Source of the DNA: Martinezella rhizogenes
Lineage (GTDB): Bacteria > Pseudomonadota > Alphaproteobacteria > Rhizobiales > Rhizobiaceae
Assembly: GCF_007002745.1 (NCBI RefSeq)
Contig: NZ_SGNY01000006.1
Coordinates: 1 to 64,000, forward strand
Length of the DNA: 64,000 nt
Reading direction: 5' to 3'
A program made the position numbers and the translations under genes. Positions 11,708-63,869 of this stretch are shown here, in pieces. Every line of letters starts with the position of its first letter. Within the stretch, counting starts at the first letter, position 1. The notes beneath the pieces were generated by a model. It had not been told where the DNA came from. It searched no databases and was given only the letters and a program-made list of their open reading frames with translations.

Positions 11708-12304
11708 ATGGCAGAACGTAAAGGCGAGATTATCCGCACCACCAACGAGACTTCGGTTTCGGTGCGTGTGGATATCGACGGCACCGGCAAGTCGACAATT
11801 TCCACCGGCGTGGGATTTTTCGACCATATGCTGGACCAGCTGAGCCGCCATTCGCTGATCGACATGCACATCGAGGTCAAGGGCGACCTGCATATCGATG
11901 ACCATCACACCGTGGAAGATACTGGCATCGCCATCGGCCAGGCGATTGCCAAGGCGCTGGGTGACCGTCGCGGCATTACCCGTTATGCCTCGCTTGATCT
12001 TGCCATGGACGAGACGATGACCAAGGCTGCCGTCGATATTTCCGGCCGGCCCTTTCTCGTCTGGAACGTCAATTTTTCCGCACCGAAGATCGGCACTTTC
12101 GACACGGAACTGGTGCGCGAGTTCTTTCAGGCGCTGGCCCAGAATGCCGGTATTACGCTGCATATCCTGAACCATTACGGCGCCAACAACCATCATATCG
12201 CCGAAACATGCTTCAAGGCCGTTGCCCGCGTTCTTCGTACGGCAACCGAGATCGACCCCCGGCAGGCAGGCCGCGTTCCCTCCACAAAGGGTATGCTGGC
12301 CTGA
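11708..12304 (+). CDS. hisB: Imidazoleglycerol-phosphate dehydratase HisB
   Basis: A 198-residue monofunctional dehydratase, converting imidazole glycerol phosphate to imidazole acetol phosphate, step six of histidine synthesis. The metal-binding repeats show as [23 protein letters not shown] and [15 protein letters not shown] 11708 (MAERKGE) has GGAG about 10 bases upstream and fits rhizobial HisB length; the frame is open 16 codons further up without support. It opens a six-gene plus-strand run, hisB-DUF2628-hisH-hisA-hisF-hisE, leading into coaA. Confidence 0.96.
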
Positions 12305-19077: not shown

Positions 19078-19416
19078 GACGCGTTCCTTGTAAATGACGA
19101 TAAGGCCGTTGAAATTTTCACGGAAAAATACGTGGCAGCTTTTGGAAACGCAAGAGCCGAACTTTAAAAAACTTAGTGATTTCAATATATTAATCGATTT
19201 AAAAGATTTTATTTCTTTTTAAATCGGTTGAAGACGCATTAAAATCCAGCTGCGGCGGTTTCACGAAATCCGGCCACCGCACCCGCACGATTTTGGGGCG
19301 AGTTTTCCTTTGCCACAATTTGTTCCACCTTTATACTCAAGAGAGTGGCTCGCGGCGCACAACCTGGCTGGGTGAATGTCGGGAGTTACGAGAAAATGAC
19401 GATGGAGACCAACTAC
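19078..19416. promoter_or_regulatory. pckA/chvI divergent intergenic region
   Basis: A 339-base gap holding promoters for both genes. Its pckA-proximal half is AT-rich against a GC-rich background. An inverted repeat AATCGATTTAAAA (19192-19204) / TTTTAAATCGGTT (19217-19229) has one mismatch. Each arm also contains a shorter CG-centred imperfect palindrome (TTAATCGATTTAA and TTAAATCGGTTGAA), the shape of LacI-family operators. I infer a regulator site such as PckR for pckA. The chvI-proximal half shows no repeat I can support. Confidence 0.5.
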
Positions 19417-42191: not shown

Positions 42192-42207
42192 TGTTTCACG
42201 TGAATCC
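42192..42207. other. parS-like site (ParB-binding), intergenic trpF/DUF45
   Basis: TGTTTCACGTGAATCC matches the bacterial parS consensus TGTTTCACGTGAAACA at 14 of 16 positions; both mismatches are in the right arm. About 14.4 kb left of the origin interval. Confidence 0.65.
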
Positions 42208-49629: not shown

Positions 49630-50738
49630 CGCCGATACCTTTCCGCAGCAATGCGCGGCAACAGTATATAAAAATCGGCCTCATTACGCACCGTTCCGGC
49701 AAGCTCTCCTGCCTCGAAACCGGAGCCGGTGAAAATATCGCCCCGCGCCGGGCCGACGATAGCCGAGCCCGTATCGAGCGCCAGCATCAGACGGGCGAAG
49801 GGTTTTCCATTATCCAGATGGGTCAGGGTTGGCGCATGGATAAAAAAGGGAAAACCGAAAGTATGGATAAGCCTGTCCACGGCCAGCGCCCGCCCGGCAA
49901 CCAGCGGCACCTTGGCGGCGGCAATCGGTCCCATGTCCTCATCCACGACATCTGCCTCGCGGAAAAAAATGAAGGAGCGGTTATGCCACAGCACCTCATT
50001 TACCTCATCCGGGTGGTCGGCAAGCCACTTGCGGATCGTCTGCATCGAGATCGTTTTCGGGTCCAGTTCACCGCGATCCAGAAGCAGCCGTCCGATCGGT
50101 GAAAACGGATGCCCGGCCTTGGCCGCATAAGTGATGCGTTTTACCGTACCATCCGGAAACACCAGACGGGCCGCACCCTGAACGTGGACGAAAAACAGGT
50201 CGACTTTCGATTTCGCCCAGGCGATCTCAAGACCCCTACCCTCCAGATATCCCTCATCGATCGCCCGGCGATCGGGAAAATAGGAAATGCCGTCCTCTTC
50301 CGCTTTTGCAAAAGCATAGGACGGATCGAAACCGGCGGGACGATTGTCGTCGTTTATATCCACCAGCTCAGGCGGTCTGCGATAGATTGGGTGGCACCAG
50401 ACATCATCACGAACGGACGAGACTTCCAGCTCGGGTTCATAGAAGGCGGTTACAAAACCGCTTTTTCCTCCAGGTGGAGAAATTTTAAAGGGTACACAAT
50501 TTGTCTCAAAGAAGCGGCGGGCCTGTTCCGGACTAGCTCCGTCCTTCTCATTGGCCACTTCCAGAAGAGAAACCAGCTCAGCAGCGGTCAGACCCAGCGC
50601 ACCGCTCCTGTAAGGTTTCGCATTCCGGAGATGAGACAGAACCGTCCGCATCACCGGAAAAAGCTTGCCGGGATCGTCTTCCTGCCAGCCGGGCAGGTTC
50701 TGGAAAGCAACTTCCTCGATCGAAAAGGGCGCGGTCAT
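49626..50738 (-). CDS. mltA: MltA-family lytic transglycosylase
   Basis: A 370-residue murein transglycosylase A. The double-psi barrel/3D domain shows GFVTAFYEPELEVS, the central VHVQGAARLVFPDG and the catalytic Asp in LALDTGSAIVGPARGDIFTGSG. It would cleave peptidoglycan with 1,6-anhydro-MurNAc formation. No signal peptide or lipobox is visible at MTAPFSIEEVAFQNL, unlike E. coli MltA. Its start overlaps the timA stop by four bases, so a longer N-terminus is unlikely. Confidence 0.9.
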   Translation of the reverse strand: MTAPFSIEEVAFQNLPGWQEDDPGKLFPVMRTVLSHLRNAKPYRSGALGLTAAELVSLLEVANEKDGASPEQARRFFETNCVPFKISPPGGKSGFVTAFYEPELEVSSVRDDVWCHPIYRRPPELVDINDDNRPAGFDPSYAFAKAEEDGISYFPDRRAIDEGYLEGRGLEIAWAKSKVDLFFVHVQGAARLVFPDGTVKRITYAAKAGHPFSPIGRLLLDRGELDPKTISMQTIRKWLADHPDEVNEVLWHNRSFIFFREADVVDEDMGPIAAAKVPLVAGRALAVDRLIHTFGFPFFIHAPTLTHLDNGKPFARLMLALDTGSAIVGPARGDIFTGSGFEAGELAGTVRNEADFYILLPRIAAERYRR

Positions 50739-54135: not shown

Positions 54136-54995
54136 CAATGTTTCTCCATGTCCGCAATGATCAGGGAGCGGAGAGTTTCATCGACTTGCGGCATTTCACC
54201 GAACCATCGCTGGAAGCCGGGTTTTGCCTGGTGAAGCAGCATGCCGAGCCCATCCACCGTTGTTATGCCCTGCGCTTCCGCCATCTTCAGAATTGGTGTT
54301 TTCAACGGTACATAGATGATATCAGTCACGACGGCGTTGGTGGCGAGTGGCGAAAAATCGAATTCAGGCGCTTCGGTGCCGTCCATGCCGAGCGATGTCG
54401 TATTCACGAAAAGCCTGGCACCCCGCATGACTTCATGAAGTGCCGCCTGCGGGTGCGAAAAAACCCGGGGGCCAAAACGGTCGGCCAGTTCCCGCGCGCG
54501 CTCAACTGTGCGATTCAGGACGTGGATTTCGGCAATGCCCCGATCGCGCAGGGACTGAATGACCGCCCGGCTCGCACCGCCGGCTCCCAAAACCACCGCA
54601 CGGTCGGTCTTGTCCCAGCCGGGATGGCGCTCATCGAGATTGGCGACAAAACCATAACCATCCGTATTGGTGGCGTGGAGCTTACCTTCTTCCACCCAGA
54701 TGGTGTTGGCGGCACCCAGTTCTTCCGCCAGAGCATCGGGGCTGTCGGCTAAGTTATAAGCCGCTTCCTTGTGCGGAATGGTGACGTTGCCTCCAACCGC
54801 CGTACCCGGTTTGGCTTCCTTAAGTGTGGCAATGAAATTCGGAAAATCGTCCGGAGAAACTTCCACAGCCCTATAGGACCCGGCAATGCCGAATTTCTTT
54901 AGCCAGTAGGAATGAATGATCGGTGAGCGCGAATGCTTGATCGGGTAACCCGCGACGAAGGCGTTTATGGTTAATGTTTCACGTGAATCAGCCAT
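54135..54995 (-). CDS. aroE: Shikimate dehydrogenase AroE
   Basis: A 286-residue NADPH-dependent enzyme reducing 3-dehydroshikimate. Substrate site [17 protein letters not shown], catalytic Lys in [13 protein letters not shown], Asp in NTDGYGF and nucleotide loop [14 protein letters not shown] are present. ATG 54995 (MADSRETL) is chosen by homology. Codons 2-7 contain a parS-like site (54975-54990). The start overlaps the maf end by eight bases. Confidence 0.95.
54975..54990. other. parS-like site inside the aroE 5' end
   Basis: TGTTTCACGTGAATCA on the plus strand, one mismatch to parS. On the coding strand it provides codons for Asp-Ser-Arg-Glu-Thr at AroE residues 3-7. About 1.6 kb left of the origin interval. 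Confidence 0.75.
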
Positions 54996-55587
54996 CGATG
55001 ACATCCATCTCGCGCAGTTTCGATAAAAGTGGCAAAAGCGGCAGGCCAAGAATCGTGAAATAATCCCCCTCGATGGAGGTGAATAGCTGGATTCCCTCCC
55101 CTTCGAGCTGGTAGGCGCCGACGCTGGTCAGGGCTCTGTCACCCACCCGCTGCAAATGACGGGAGACAAATTCGGCGGTCAAAATCCGCACGGCAAGTTC
55201 CGCGCTGGAGACCGTCTGCCATATCACCTCACCGCCATGAACGAGAACAGCAGCACTGTTCAGCCGATGAACCTTACCTGACAATGACAGCAGATGGGCT
55301 TCGGCCTCCGCCATGGTTTTCGGCTTATGATAGACACGGGTCCCGAGCGCCATGGTCTGGTCACATCCAAGAACCAGCGCCGCCGGATGCAGCCTGCCGA
55401 CTGCAAGGGCCTTTGCCTTTGCCAGTTCCAGCGCGACCTCTTCCGGGTTCGCACCGTCTCGTTCCAGCTGCTCATCAAGCGCACGCTCATCAATATCCGC
55501 GGGTATTGCAGAAAATGTCAGCCCCGCATTGCGCATCAGCATCTGGCGGGATGCACTGGACGAGGCGAGGATCAACTCTTGTTTCAT
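54988..55587 (-). CDS. maf: Maf family nucleotide pyrophosphatase
   Basis: A 199-residue Maf/HAM1-type protein that hydrolyses non-canonical nucleoside triphosphates. Motifs are [39 protein letters not shown] and [15 protein letters not shown]. The subfamily (7-methyl-GTP or dTTP/UTP pyrophosphatase) cannot be fixed by eye. ATG 55587 ([11 protein letters not shown]) follows GGAGCAG; upstream open frame is not family-like. Confidence 0.92.
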
Positions 55588-56440: not shown

Positions 56441-56848
56441 GCTGTTTTTCTCCCGCTGTTGATAAACCGGGACAAACTTCAAAATTGTCCTGAGGGCCGA
56501 GCCGCGACGTGAATAAGGTGGTGTTTTTCCACAATCCGCAAGTGGCTGCAATCCTGCCCGGCGTGCCTGTGAATTACTGGAAGAATGTAAAACTGTTCAA
56601 ACTTTTCCCCAGATTATCCACAGATGGGATGATTTCGGTTGGAAATCTAAAGTACTGAAATTATTCTGAAAATATCTGTTTTCCCATTTAGCTCGCGATG
56701 CTGCGCCGAGCAATATCCGCTGGTGGTCATCAAACCCTGCCGCTGCGGCATTTCGACTGGAATGATTTTAATCCTTGCTACCCACAGACTCTAAGAAATA
56801 GAAAATCTTTTAAATCTCTTTGATTTTATTTTTTAGAAGTTGGGTGCC
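56441..56848. other. Putative chromosomal replication origin oriC (ppsR-hemE interval)
   Basis: A 408-base gap without genes. It holds DnaA-box-like sequences: one perfect TTATCCACA at 56614-56622; TTTTCCACA at 56525-56533 (one mismatch); TTATCAACA on the minus strand at 56457-56465 (one mismatch); and CTACCCACA at 56778-56786 (two mismatches). A block rich in A and T spans roughly 56761-56836 beside hemE and could be the unwinding element; a second AT-rich patch is at about 56641-56690. Gene direction changes here, minus on the left and plus on the right. The hemE-side location agrees with origins mapped in Caulobacter and Sinorhizobium. Confidence 0.82.
56614..56622 (+). promoter_or_regulatory. 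Perfect DnaA box
   Basis: TTATCCACA, exact match to the high-affinity DnaA consensus, in the middle of the putative origin. Confidence 0.85.
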
Positions 56849-57883
56849 ATGAGCGAACGCAAGGTAATGATGGTGTTGAACGGGCAGACGGTCACACCGC
56901 CACCCATATGGCTGATGCGTCAGGCGGGACGCTATCTTCCGGAGTACAGGGAAACGCGAAAGAGCGCGGGAAGTTTCCTTGATCTCTGTTATAATCCCGA
57001 GCTGGCAACTGAAGTGACCCTTCAGCCCATTCGCCGGTTCGGGCTTGATGCCGCCATTCTCTTTTCCGATATCCTGGTGATACCGGATGCGCTTCATCGC
57101 AATGTATCCTTCAGCGAAGGAAAGGGTCCGGCCATGGATCCGATCGATGTACGCGGCATCGAGAAGCTGGATTCGACGGATGTGATGGCGCATCTTGCGC
57201 CCGTTTTCGAAACCGTTTCGCGTCTGCGCACGACGTTGCCGGATGAAACGACGCTTCTTGGCTTCTGCGGTGCGCCCTGGACAGTTGCGACCTATATGAT
57301 CGCCGGCCATGGGACACCGGATCAGGCGCCAGCGCGGCTGTTCGGGTATCAGGAACCCGCAGCCATGGAAAAGCTGCTGGCTTTTCTTGCCGATGTTTCC
57401 GCCGATTATCTGGTGGCGCAGATCGATGCCGGTGCTGATGCGGTGCAGATTTTCGATTCCTGGGCCGGCGTGCTCGGTGAAAAGGAATTCGAGGAATATG
57501 CCGTAAAGCCGGTTGCCCGTATTATCGCATCGGTGCGTGCTCGCCGGCCCTCAGCAAAGATCATCGCTTTCGCCAAGGGTGCCGGTTATCTTCTCAAGGA
57601 TTATCGTCGTAAAACGGGCGCAGATGCCATCGGGCTCGACTGGTCTGTGCCGTTGACCTTCGCCCGGGACTTGCAGAAGGAAGGCCCTGTACAGGGCAAT
57701 CTGGACCCGATGCTGATGGTGGCGGGCGGCAGGGCGTTGCAGGATGGCATCGATGCGGTGCTGCAGGCGCTCGGACAGGGCCCACTGATTTTCAATCTCG
57801 GCCATGGCATCACGCCGCAGGCTGACCCGGAAAACGTTGCAAGACTGGTGCAGCGGGTGCGTGCTGGCGGAGCCGCAGTATGA
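56849..57883 (+). CDS. hemE: Uroporphyrinogen decarboxylase HemE
   Basis: A 344-residue enzyme decarboxylating uroporphyrinogen III to coproporphyrinogen III in haem synthesis. Signatures [20 protein letters not shown] (two parts) and [13 protein letters not shown] are intact, with [13 protein letters not shown] and FNLGHGI. ATG 56849 is used; TTG 56840 in frame would add three residues. It overlaps hemJ by four bases (ATGA). Confidence 0.97.
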
Positions 57884-59965: not shown

Positions 59966-61294
59966 ATGCCAGCTTCCGCCGATACGATCTATGCGCTTTC
60001 AAGCGGCGCTCTGCCGGCGGGCGTTGCCGTGATCAGGGTCAGTGGTCCCCAAGCATTCCTGGCTATAACGACGCTGACAGGTCGAGAAATCCCGTCACCA
60101 AGGCGGGCTGTTTTGAGTTCGATTCGGGATCGAAACGATGAAATCATTGATCAGACACTGATCCTCGCTTTTCCTGCGCCAAATTCCTTCACGGGTGAAA
60201 ACTGCGTCGAGATACACAGCCATGGTAGCCGCGCGGTGCTCGCCTCAGTTTTTGCCGAGCTGGAGAATCTGGAGGGGTTTCGTCCTGCGGATGCCGGTGA
60301 ATTTTCCCGCCGCGCTTTTGAAAACGGCAAGATGGACCTTCTCGAAGTCGAAGGGCTGGCCGACCTGCTACAGGCGGAAACCGAAATGCAGCGGCGTCTT
60401 GCAGTGGAACAGAGCACCGGAAAGCTTTCCGCGCTCTACGATGGCTGGGCAGGTCGCTTAACGCGTGCCCGCGCCTTGATTGAAGCGGAGCTGGACTTCG
60501 CCGATGAAGACGATGTACCGGACTCGGTCGCAACTCAGGTGTGGGAGGCGATGTCGCAGTTGCGGGGGGAGATCGCCGATCATCTTCGCCAGGGTAATGG
60601 TGGCGAAATTATCCGTGATGGGTTTAAGATCGCATTGGTGGGTGAGCCGAACGCCGGTAAATCTACCTTGCTTAACGCTCTAAGCGGTCGTGACGTTGCG
60701 ATCGTCACCGATATAGCGGGCACGACGCGGGACGTTCTGAGTGTTGATATTGATCTGGATGGTTACCTTGTCCGGATATTCGACACGGCGGGCATTCGAG
60801 AGACCGAGGATGTCGTCGAAAAGGAGGGCGTGCGGCGAGCGAAATTAACAGCTGAGAATGCGGATCTCATTTTGCTGCTTCAGGACAATGATTCGCTCCC
60901 GAAACAATCCTTCATTTCATTTGGTAATACTCGTCACCTCTATCTGCGCACGAAGTCGGCTCTCTCTACAGATTCCGCAGAAAATGCCTTTGACCTTTCT
61001 ATCTCTGCCAAAGAGGGACATGGGCTGGATGAATTGCGAGCGGTGATCAACCAGGAGATCAGGAACAGGGTTGGTGCTGGCCAGACGCTGGTTCCAGCCC
61101 GCGCCCGTCACAAAAAACGGCTTGAAGAGACGCTGAACTATGTTAGTGATGCGCTGGAGTCCGAAGCCATGGACCTTGCGATAAGGTCAGAATATTTACG
61201 GCTTGCGGCGACATCGCTTGGGCGCATAACCGGCCGTGTCGATGTGGAAGATTTGCTAGGCGTAATCTTCTCGGAATTCTGCATAGGAAAATGA
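59966..61294 (+). CDS. mnmE: tRNA modification GTPase MnmE
   Basis: A 442-residue GTPase working with MnmG on the wobble uridine of some tRNAs. The N-terminal formyl-THF domain (TIYALSSGALPAGVAVIRVSG region) and the C-terminal CIGK are intact. G domain: G1 GEPNAGKST, G2 DIAGTTRD, G3 DTAGIRE. The G4 motif, normally NKxD, reads TKSA here (LYLRTKSALS). ATG 59966 follows GAGG; a GTG three bases upstream is possible. Confidence 0.96.
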   Translation: MPASADTIYALSSGALPAGVAVIRVSGPQAFLAITTLTGREIPSPRRAVLSSIRDRNDEIIDQTLILAFPAPNSFTGENCVEIHSHGSRAVLASVFAELENLEGFRPADAGEFSRRAFENGKMDLLEVEGLADLLQAETEMQRRLAVEQSTGKLSALYDGWAGRLTRARALIEAELDFADEDDVPDSVATQVWEAMSQLRGEIADHLRQGNGGEIIRDGFKIALVGEPNAGKSTLLNALSGRDVAIVTDIAGTTRDVLSVDIDLDGYLVRIFDTAGIRETEDVVEKEGVRRAKLTAENADLILLLQDNDSLPKQSFISFGNTRHLYLRTKSALSTDSAENAFDLSISAKEGHGLDELRAVINQEIRNRVGAGQTLVPARARHKKRLEETLNYVSDALESEAMDLAIRSEYLRLAATSLGRITGRVDVEDLLGVIFSEFCIGK

Positions 61295-61307
61295 TTCACG
61301 TGAAACA
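61292..61307. other. parS-like site between mnmE and mnmG
   Basis: TGATTCACGTGAAACA, one mismatch to parS, overlapping the mnmE TGA stop. It is the exact reverse complement of the site at 54975-54990. About 4.7 kb right of the origin interval. Confidence 0.75.
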
Positions 61308-61356: not shown

Positions 61357-63240
61357 ATGCACCAATCATATGATGTCATAATTATCGGCGGTGGCCACGC
61401 CGGCAGTGAAGCTGCCGCCGCCGCGGCGCGACATGGCGCAAAAACCGCCCTCATCACCCATAAGCGCGAGACGATAGGCGTGATGTCCTGCAACCCTGCG
61501 ATTGGCGGTCTCGGCAAGGGGCATCTGGTTCGTGAGATTGATGCGCTTGACGGCTTGATGGGCAGGGTCGCTGATGCTGCCGGTATCCAGTTCCGTATGC
61601 TTAATCGTAAAAAGGGTCCGGCCGTTCGCGGGCCGCGGACGCAGGCTGACAGACGACTTTACCGCGAGGCGATGCAGCGTGAAATCGACGCGATTGAAAA
61701 TCTGACGATTATCGAGGGCGATGCCTTCGATATCGAGATGGCGGATGACCGTGTCTCCGCCGTTATTATGGCGAATGGTAGCCGGATTCCGTGTGGGGCG
61801 GCTGTTCTGACCAGTGGCACTTTTTTGCGTGGCCTGATTCATATCGGTTCCGAAAAGATTCCTGCCGGTCGTGTCGGGGAAAAGCCATCGGTGGGTCTCT
61901 CCGAGACACTTTCTCGTCTTGGCTTGGTTATGGGGCGATTGAAAACCGGCACGCCTGCCCGGCTCGATGGTCGCACCATTCACTGGGATGCTGTCGATCG
62001 ACAGGGGGCGGATGAAGATCCGGTGCCTTTTTCCTTCATGACGGATCAGATTCTCAACCCGCAGATCGAGTGTGGCGTAACCCGCACGACGCCGGCCGGT
62101 CATAAGATTATCCAGGACAATATTCATCTTTCGGCGATGTATTCCGGGCAGATCGAGGGAGTTGGCCCACGCTATTGCCCGTCCATCGAAGATAAGATCA
62201 CCCGTTTTGGGGAACGGGATGGCCATCAGATATTTCTGGAACCAGAGGGTCTGGACGACCACACTATTTATCCGAATGGTATCTCGACCTCCCTTCCCGC
62301 TTCCGTGCAGGAACAGTTTATTCGTATGATACCAGGGCTCGAACAGGTCACTATTCTTCAGCCCGGTTACGCCATCGAATATGACTATGTCGATCCGCGG
62401 GAGCTCAAGCCCTCGCTTGAATGCCGCAAAATTCCTGGCCTGTTCCTGGCGGGGCAGATCAACGGCACCACTGGTTATGAAGAAGCCGGCGCTCAGGGTC
62501 TTGTTGCGGGGCTGAACGCTTCTCTTTATGCTAGCAATACCGATCCGCTCTATTTCAGCCGAACGGAATCCTATATCGGCGTCATGGTCGATGATCTGAC
62601 CTCGAAGGGCGTAAGCGAACCCTACCGGATGTTTACATCGAGGGCCGAATACCGGCTTTCCCTGCGTGTGGATAATGCCGATTTGCGGCTGACGCCAATT
62701 GGCCAAAAAGCCGGGATTATCGGTTCCAAGCGCGAAAAGCGCTTTGAGGCATTTATTGCTGATCTGGAAGCGGGTCGTGAGCTGATGAAGGCAGCGACCA
62801 TCAGCCCTTCCCAGGCGGCGAAACAGGGATTGAAGCTCAATCAGGATGGTCAGCGCCGTTCCGTTTATGAATTGCTCGCTTACCCTGATATAACACTGGA
62901 TGTTCTTACGCAGCATTGGCCGGAGCTGCAGTCGCTTCGCGGCAAGGTTGCGGAAACTCTGGAAATTGAAGCAAGTTATGCGGTTTATATGCAGCGGCAG
63001 AGCGCGGATATTGTTGATATCAAACGGGATGAAGACAGGAAAATCCCGGATGATTTCGATTTCCAAAGTCTCTCAGGTCTTTCCAATGAACTGAAACAAA
63101 AGTTGGAAAAGGTCCGCCCCGAGAACATTGCGCAGGCTGCACGTGTTGACGGTATGACGCCGGCTGCTATATCGCTGCTGCTTGCCCTACTGCGAAAAAG
63201 TTCCGCTGGGCAAGGCGAAAAATTACGCATGCACCAATAG
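61357..63240 (+). CDS. mnmG: tRNA uridine-5-carboxymethylaminomethyl modification enzyme MnmG (GidA)
   Basis: A 627-residue FAD protein, partner of MnmE. The Rossmann FAD loop is [20 protein letters not shown], then [41 protein letters not shown] and [17 protein letters not shown]. Full length for the family, including the C-terminal helical domain. It lies 62 bases after mnmE and 11 bases before rsmG, the usual mnmE-mnmG-rsmG-parA order near origins. Confidence 0.98.
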
Positions 63241-63251
63241 CGAGTCGGATT

Positions 63252-63869
63252 ATGAAGATAAACGGCCAGAGTGTTTCACGTGAAACACATGAGAGGCTCG
63301 AACACTTTGTCGAGCTTTTTAAGAAGTGGAATAAAACCACCAACCTGGTCGCGCCCTCCACTCTCACAGAGCTTTGGAGTAGGCATGTGGCCGACAGCGC
63401 CCAAATATTCCAGCTCTCTCCCAAGGTACAACGATGGGCTGACTTAGGCAGCGGCGGCGGTTTCCCGGGCGTTATAACCGCTATCTTTCTCGCGGAACTC
63501 GGCGATGGTTGGGTAGATCTGGTCGAAAGCAACAATAAAAAGGCTGCATTTTTGCGGATTGCCCTAAAGGAAACCGGGGCGAGAGGTAGCGTTCATCCGA
63601 TAAGGATCGAAAAAGCGCCTGAAATTGTCAAAACCTGCGATGCCGTTTCCGCGCGAGCACTGGCCGAGCTTGATCTGCTTTTCGACTATATTCATCCCTG
63701 GGCGCAGAATAATCCAAACCTCAAGGCCTATTTTAATAAAGGCCGGGATTATGATTCCGAAGTGCAGAAAGCGCATGGTCGCTGGCAGTTTGATCTGGTA
63801 AAACATCAGAGTGCCATTGAGGCAGATTCTGTTGTTCTTGAAATCAGCAACCTCACTTTGAGACGCTGA
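63252..63869 (+). CDS. rsmG: 16S rRNA m7G527 methyltransferase RsmG (GidB)
   Basis: A 205-residue SAM-dependent methyltransferase for G527 of 16S rRNA. The SAM loop is [13 protein letters not shown], followed by [13 protein letters not shown] and SARALAELD. Residues 7-12 (SVSRET) are encoded by a perfect parS palindrome. ParA begins 19 bases after the stop. Confidence 0.96.
63272..63287. other. Perfect parS site within rsmG
   Basis: TGTTTCACGTGAAACA, identical to the bacterial parS consensus and fully palindromic, about 6.7 kb right of the origin interval and 600 bases upstream of parA. Confidence 0.93.

Follow-up and report, generated by a model that had tools for sequence, protein, structure and literature searches.

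A predicted hemE-type chromosomal origin of replication in Martinezella rhizogenes with a conserved candidate unwinding module upstream of hemE

Results

The gap between ppsR and hemE

The window analysed here comprises bases 1–64,000 of contig 6 of the 5.75 Mb genome of Martinezella rhizogenes, which is assembled into 27 contigs. The GTG start codon of ppsR (56440–56438, minus strand) and the ATG of hemE at 56849 are separated by 408 bp, the length given in an initial annotation of the sequence, which described the gap as gene-free and proposed it as the chromosomal origin. Inside the gap, two reading frames that start with ATG reach 30 residues or more, with lengths of 41 and 34 amino acids. 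On paper, ppsR could be extended to 56551 and hemE to 56840 from TTG codons. The flanking genes are divergent, as annotated, and encode a Kinase-PPPase (PF03618, minus strand) and a uroporphyrinogen decarboxylase (PF01208, plus strand). Scans of the 64-kb window for Rfam families and tRNAs gave no matches.

The oriC of S. meliloti is a hemE-type origin. The initial annotation had named Caulobacter and Rickettsia as organisms with hemE beside the origin, in agreement with the published order, in which hemE and COG1806 (ppsR) flank the origin (PMC1914354). The gap occupies this position between hemE and COG1806, the Kinase-PPPase gene. The dnaA gene itself is located on contig 3. Because the contig of one relative terminates 206 bases upstream of hemE, base 1 of that sequence (G006) appears to have been placed in the ppsR/hemE gap. 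The gap and its DnaA boxes are as follows:

56441..56848, no strand: oriC gap between ppsR and hemE, supported by boxes, skew, parS sites and duplex stability
56457..56465, minus strand: DnaA box A, TTATCAACA, one mismatch, in the ppsR leader
56525..56533, plus strand: DnaA box B, TTTTCCACA, one mismatch
56568..56576, minus strand: weak DnaA box C, TAATTCACA, two mismatches, core kept in congeners
56614..56622, plus strand: DnaA box D, TTATCCACA, perfect

DnaA boxes

The perfect box, the two one-mismatch boxes and the weaker fourth reported in the initial annotation are all present, and sites with two mismatches are located at 56508, 56568, 56603 and 56778. Shuffled 64-kb sequences contain 6.48 boxes with at most one mismatch, equivalent to 0.04 per 408 bp, and the gap contains three; nowhere else in the window do three fall within 400 bp. 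The genome has nine perfect boxes spread over five contigs; within 400 bp of eight of them there is no more than one other near-perfect box, and within the same distance of the perfect box of the gap there are two. The cluster is of the kind found in hemE-type chromosomal origins.

The gap was aligned with 24 congeners, one of which is incomplete, leaving 24 rows for the left part. Across the window and 23 congeners, ten of the eleven columns spanning box A (56455–56465) do not vary; the initial annotation had proposed that DnaA could influence ppsR expression through this box. Box B is kept across congeners with variation mainly in its third base, and reads TTTTCCACA in 14 rows, TTATCCACA in 7, TTGTCCACA in 2 and TTATCCCCA in 1. 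Box D is perfect in 17 of the 24 rows.

Several other sites were observed. A second perfect DnaA box (62667–62675, minus strand) occurs singly within mnmG at a distance of 6 kb from the origin, and two more close pairs of one-mismatch DnaA-like sites are located at 11730–11775 and 49810–49870. In the more distant congeners (loci L023–L033), boxes B and C flank a block, GTGTAGCAAGC, upstream of hemE, which the closest relatives of the window do not have.

GC skew and parS sites

Skew was analysed in the window and in the relative G019, whose HemE is 99% identical and encoded on a 3.05 Mb contig. The cumulative skew, proposed in the initial annotation as a check of its origin assignment, bears the assignment out as far as these sequences allow: the G−C minimum of the window is at 55,543, 0.9 kb from the gap. 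In G019, the minimum within 355 contiguous kb is at 2,735,538, and hemE starts at 2,734,234 on the minus strand. The two minima are thus 0.9 to 1.3 kb away from the gap or hemE, and a minimum at the site is characteristic of an oriC. Samples of the G019 contig between 1.2 and 2.7 Mb have negative skew in 11 of 11 cases, and those from 2.735 Mb via the contig ends to 1.05 Mb have positive skew in eight of nine, the exception being the sample at 300 kb (−0.006). The opposite switch comes after the sample at 1.13 Mb and before that at 1.16 Mb, approximately half-way around if the contig is circular.

All six parS-like sites (at most two mismatches) of the 5.75 Mb genome are located in the 42.2–104.4 kb interval of contig 6, around the gap, and the reversed control pattern had no matches in the same genome. 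Such sites in the vicinity are a further characteristic of hemE-type chromosomal origins. Four are positioned inside the window:

42192..42207, no strand: parS-like site, two mismatches
54975..54990, no strand: parS-like site, one mismatch
61292..61307, no strand: parS-like site, one mismatch
63272..63287, no strand: parS-like site, TGTTTCACGTGAAACA, perfect, in rsmG (gidB)

DnaA boxes also occur in promoters, and box A is placed in the ppsR leader, so that the gap could be read as a divergent ppsR/hemE control region under DnaA regulation instead of an origin. The skew switch, the parS cluster, the gene order and the conservation oppose such a reading, which we consider highly improbable. The same features, together with the box cluster, support the oriC assignment of the initial annotation, and, short of an experiment, the identification of 56441–56848 from its sequence as a hemE-type, DnaA-dependent chromosomal origin can be regarded as settled. 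It resembles other alphaproteobacterial origins of this type (Caulobacter Cori, Rickettsia, A. tumefaciens ori1) in its position between hemE and COG1806, its DnaA boxes, its AT-richness, its location at a skew switch and the proximity of parS. The published description of the Caulobacter origin also includes CtrA and IHF sites (PMC1914354).

A conserved module upstream of hemE

The most conserved part of the gap is the segment 56769–56804, which was missed in the initial annotation and contains none of its three best boxes. The plus strand of the segment reads TAATCCTTG CTACCCACA GACTC T AAG AAA TAG AAA, and can be divided into two tandem boxes, a spacer and four candidate DnaA-trios:

56769..56777, plus strand: weak box I, TAATCCTTG, four mismatches
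56778..56786, plus strand: box II, CTACCCACA, two mismatches
56787..56791, no strand: GACTC, a GANTC (CcrM site) in the spacer that separates box II from the trios, conserved in relatives
56793..56804, plus strand: four DnaA-trios, AAG AAA TAG AAA, conserved in relatives

As judged from its sequence, the module has the layout of the published basal unwinding system (BUS). The BUS rule, as given in PMC8287927, asks for a single DnaA box carrying no more than two mismatches, or for two boxes with two and four, for a spacer of 0–16 bp, and for three or more trinucleotides whose middle base is A, with 3'-GAT-5' the commonest near the box. The boxes of the window fit the rule as a pair, the trios begin 6 bases from box II and 15 from box I, both within the published spacer range, and the run of NAN trios exceeds the minimum of three. 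The module is similar to the BUS described in that paper in having DnaA boxes, a spacer and NAN trios on one strand adjoining DNA of low stability. The boxes of most relatives, in this register, are weaker than the published rule demands: among 165 relatives, a box II with two mismatches or fewer occurs in only 39 and such a box I in 12, and the trios are better kept than the boxes. The published permissive box–spacer–trio rule is loose, and conservation was therefore used as the evidence.

Conservation was assessed in 168 hemE-upstream regions of the family. No HemE match was obtained in five of the 151 family genomes, which were left out, and one of two hemE copies was used for each of G169 and G072. 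The HemE starts of 35 of the 168 regions were flagged by a rough check; they were read by eye, and all 168 were retained. A position matrix detected the module upstream of hemE with more than 15 bits in 162 of the 168 regions and more weakly in three (4.9–14.2 bits), giving the set of 165. The module is absent from the other three regions: that of the reduced genome G046, that of G119, and that before one hemE copy of the two in G169. When three mismatches were allowed, a 21-base pattern had 49 matches in 47 of the 151 family genomes; 45 of these are positioned 43–69 bp before hemE and four away from it, and the reversed control pattern had eight matches in the same 151 genomes. A longer, exact pattern was found in 119 records; hemE starts 41–51 bp downstream in 115 of them, and the other four loci end sooner.

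The middle A is present in all four trios at 162 of the 165 origins, and the first three trios are NAN at 163; the first trio is AAG or TAG at 145. Across 36 same-genus pairs, drawn from genera other than that of the window, there are 24 differences within the trios, one of which falls in the four middle columns (P = 8e-4). This periodic conservation of the trios, together with the position, the skew, the parS cluster and the overall conservation, is a direct result of the computation. Trio 2 is as constant in its first base as the trios are in their middle bases, which counts against reading the segment as an unwinding module, as do the weakness of boxes II and I in most relatives and the three regions without a module.

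In an exploratory comparison with other families of the order, for which the pattern was chosen after some of the loci had been inspected, 13 of 28 loci carry, no more than 130 bp from hemE, a box and a spacer together with four or more NAN trios, and the module was not seen in 15. The spacer consists of 2–5 mostly G/C bases at 10 of the 28 loci, whereas that of the family is GA[C/G]TC, and a GANTC occurs in the spacer at none of the 13. A trio search at the level of the class was too ambiguous to use.

Two further words were observed upstream of hemE. At 56744–56751, TGCGGCAT is kept in most congeners; it occurs in 28 of the 168 hemE-upstream regions, and the reversed word occurs in none. In other alphaproteobacteria (for example at loci L374, L376 and L387), TTATCCAC or a near form of it is followed by AGGCATC and CAC/TAC-like triplets.

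Duplex stability and the site of opening

The two AT-rich patches noted in the initial annotation are among the least stable parts of the window when it is divided into non-overlapping 50-mers:

56792..56841, no strand: probable unwinding region in the hemE leader, second least stable 50-mer
56642..56691, no strand: first AT-rich patch, possible second unwinding region, fourth least stable 50-mer

The least stable 50-mer of the window, 19174–19223, is located in a second AT-rich zone.

Low duplex stability coincides with the DnaA-trios. From the layout and conservation of the module, the most likely site of opening is therefore 56792–56841, in the hemE leader. The existence of the patch at 56642–56691 counts against this placement. 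It is also the starting point of an alternative in which the region is an origin that unwinds at 56642–56691, behind box D, and in which 56769–56804 is mainly a hemE promoter with a GANTC read by GcrA and CcrM. Approximately 45 bp separate the end of the conserved block from hemE, promoters under CcrM/GcrA regulation are known to contain GANTC (PMC11514494), and the first patch is itself the fourth least stable 50-mer, all of which would suit this alternative. However, the plus strand of the gap contains no sigma-70-like promoter of the E. coli-type consensus used, and a possible −35 TTG is lost in many relatives, which retain the box core, the spacer and the middle As. Furthermore, the bases around 56642–56691 are poorly conserved within the genus, as seen in the congener alignment. 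We consider the promoter alternative unlikely, and favour a primary-chromosome oriC with a directional module at 56769–56804 that opens the hemE leader, to which we assign a probability of about 0.87.

The GANTC site of the spacer

The GACTC at 56787–56791 is the only GANTC in the gap, a number that is unremarkable given the 0.59 expected per 408 bp. The spacer contains GACTC at 107 of the 165 origins, GAGTC at 48 and neither at 10. A GANTC is kept by every member examined in 97 of 104 genera other than that of the window. In the 36 same-genus pairs, the N differs six times, always C versus G, and differences in the four fixed bases are confined to two pairs, from genera in which the site has already been lost (P = 1e-3, all pairs). 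Switching between C and G with the fixed bases kept is expected under selection on the self-complementary GANTC. The N is never A or T, which points to an added preference for G or C in the sequence.

A joint loss of the site and of ccrM was considered and was not borne out, as ten of the ten genomes without the site retain ccrM; the set contains no near-complete genome without ccrM. CcrM matches were missing in G149 (68% complete), remote in G188 and partial in G126. The retention of ccrM in all ten genomes without the site counts against a role of methylation.

Gammaproteobacterial origins are marked by Dam and SeqA and have an adenine-methylation site at the opening region. The origin described here is similar in that a methylation site is kept in the probable opening region, as in a methylation-marked origin. 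Unlike in the Dam/SeqA origins, which are mentioned in PMC11514494, there is a single site, the enzyme is CcrM, and published work on origins of this kind found initiation without a clear response to CcrM. For most of the alphaproteobacteria that have been studied, CcrM is reported to be essential (PMC6090056). Its depletion in A. tumefaciens left the duplication of ori1 without obvious change (PMC11514494), and in Caulobacter, where the origin contains several GANTC sites, CcrM is described as dispensable for the control of initiation (PMC3973325). These results at ori1 and at the Caulobacter origin count against a role of methylation. The open-licence PMC papers searched contained none in which DnaA-trios and GANTC occur together, and a BUS spacer that would itself be a CcrM methylation site apparently has so far been undescribed.

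Discussion

We propose that DnaA binds boxes A–D and is then guided onto the module at 56769–56804, where two weak tandem boxes and a 6-base spacer with GACTC precede four plus-strand trios facing hemE. The assembly of DnaA along the single plus strand at the module would melt the AT-rich hemE leader (56792–56841), and helicase loading and two outward forks would follow. The loading of DnaA and the opening of the strands at the module are predicted by analogy with work on Bacillus subtilis and Helicobacter. More tentatively, the GANTC may allow CcrM to mark the site of opening. It is a speculative possibility, to which we give rather low odds, that the spacer of the Rhizobiaceae in the wide sense has been selected as a CcrM GANTC and that a one-site hemi-methylation mark delays or licenses re-initiation. 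If this were true, the passage of the fork would leave the opening site hemi-methylated until it is reset by CcrM late in the cell cycle, a logic comparable to that of Dam and SeqA.

The origin itself is expected, of a known kind, and was correctly guessed in the initial annotation. The present analysis adds the tests that the origin passed, a module at which it probably opens, and, within that module, a CcrM site that is conserved. The resulting fine map names the bases that are the most likely site of opening of the main chromosome in Agrobacterium, Rhizobium and Sinorhizobium. The depletion of CcrM from whole cells had not closed the question of its effect on chromosomal initiation; the map singles out one GANTC, the change of which would probe directly whether CcrM methylation touches chromosomal initiation.
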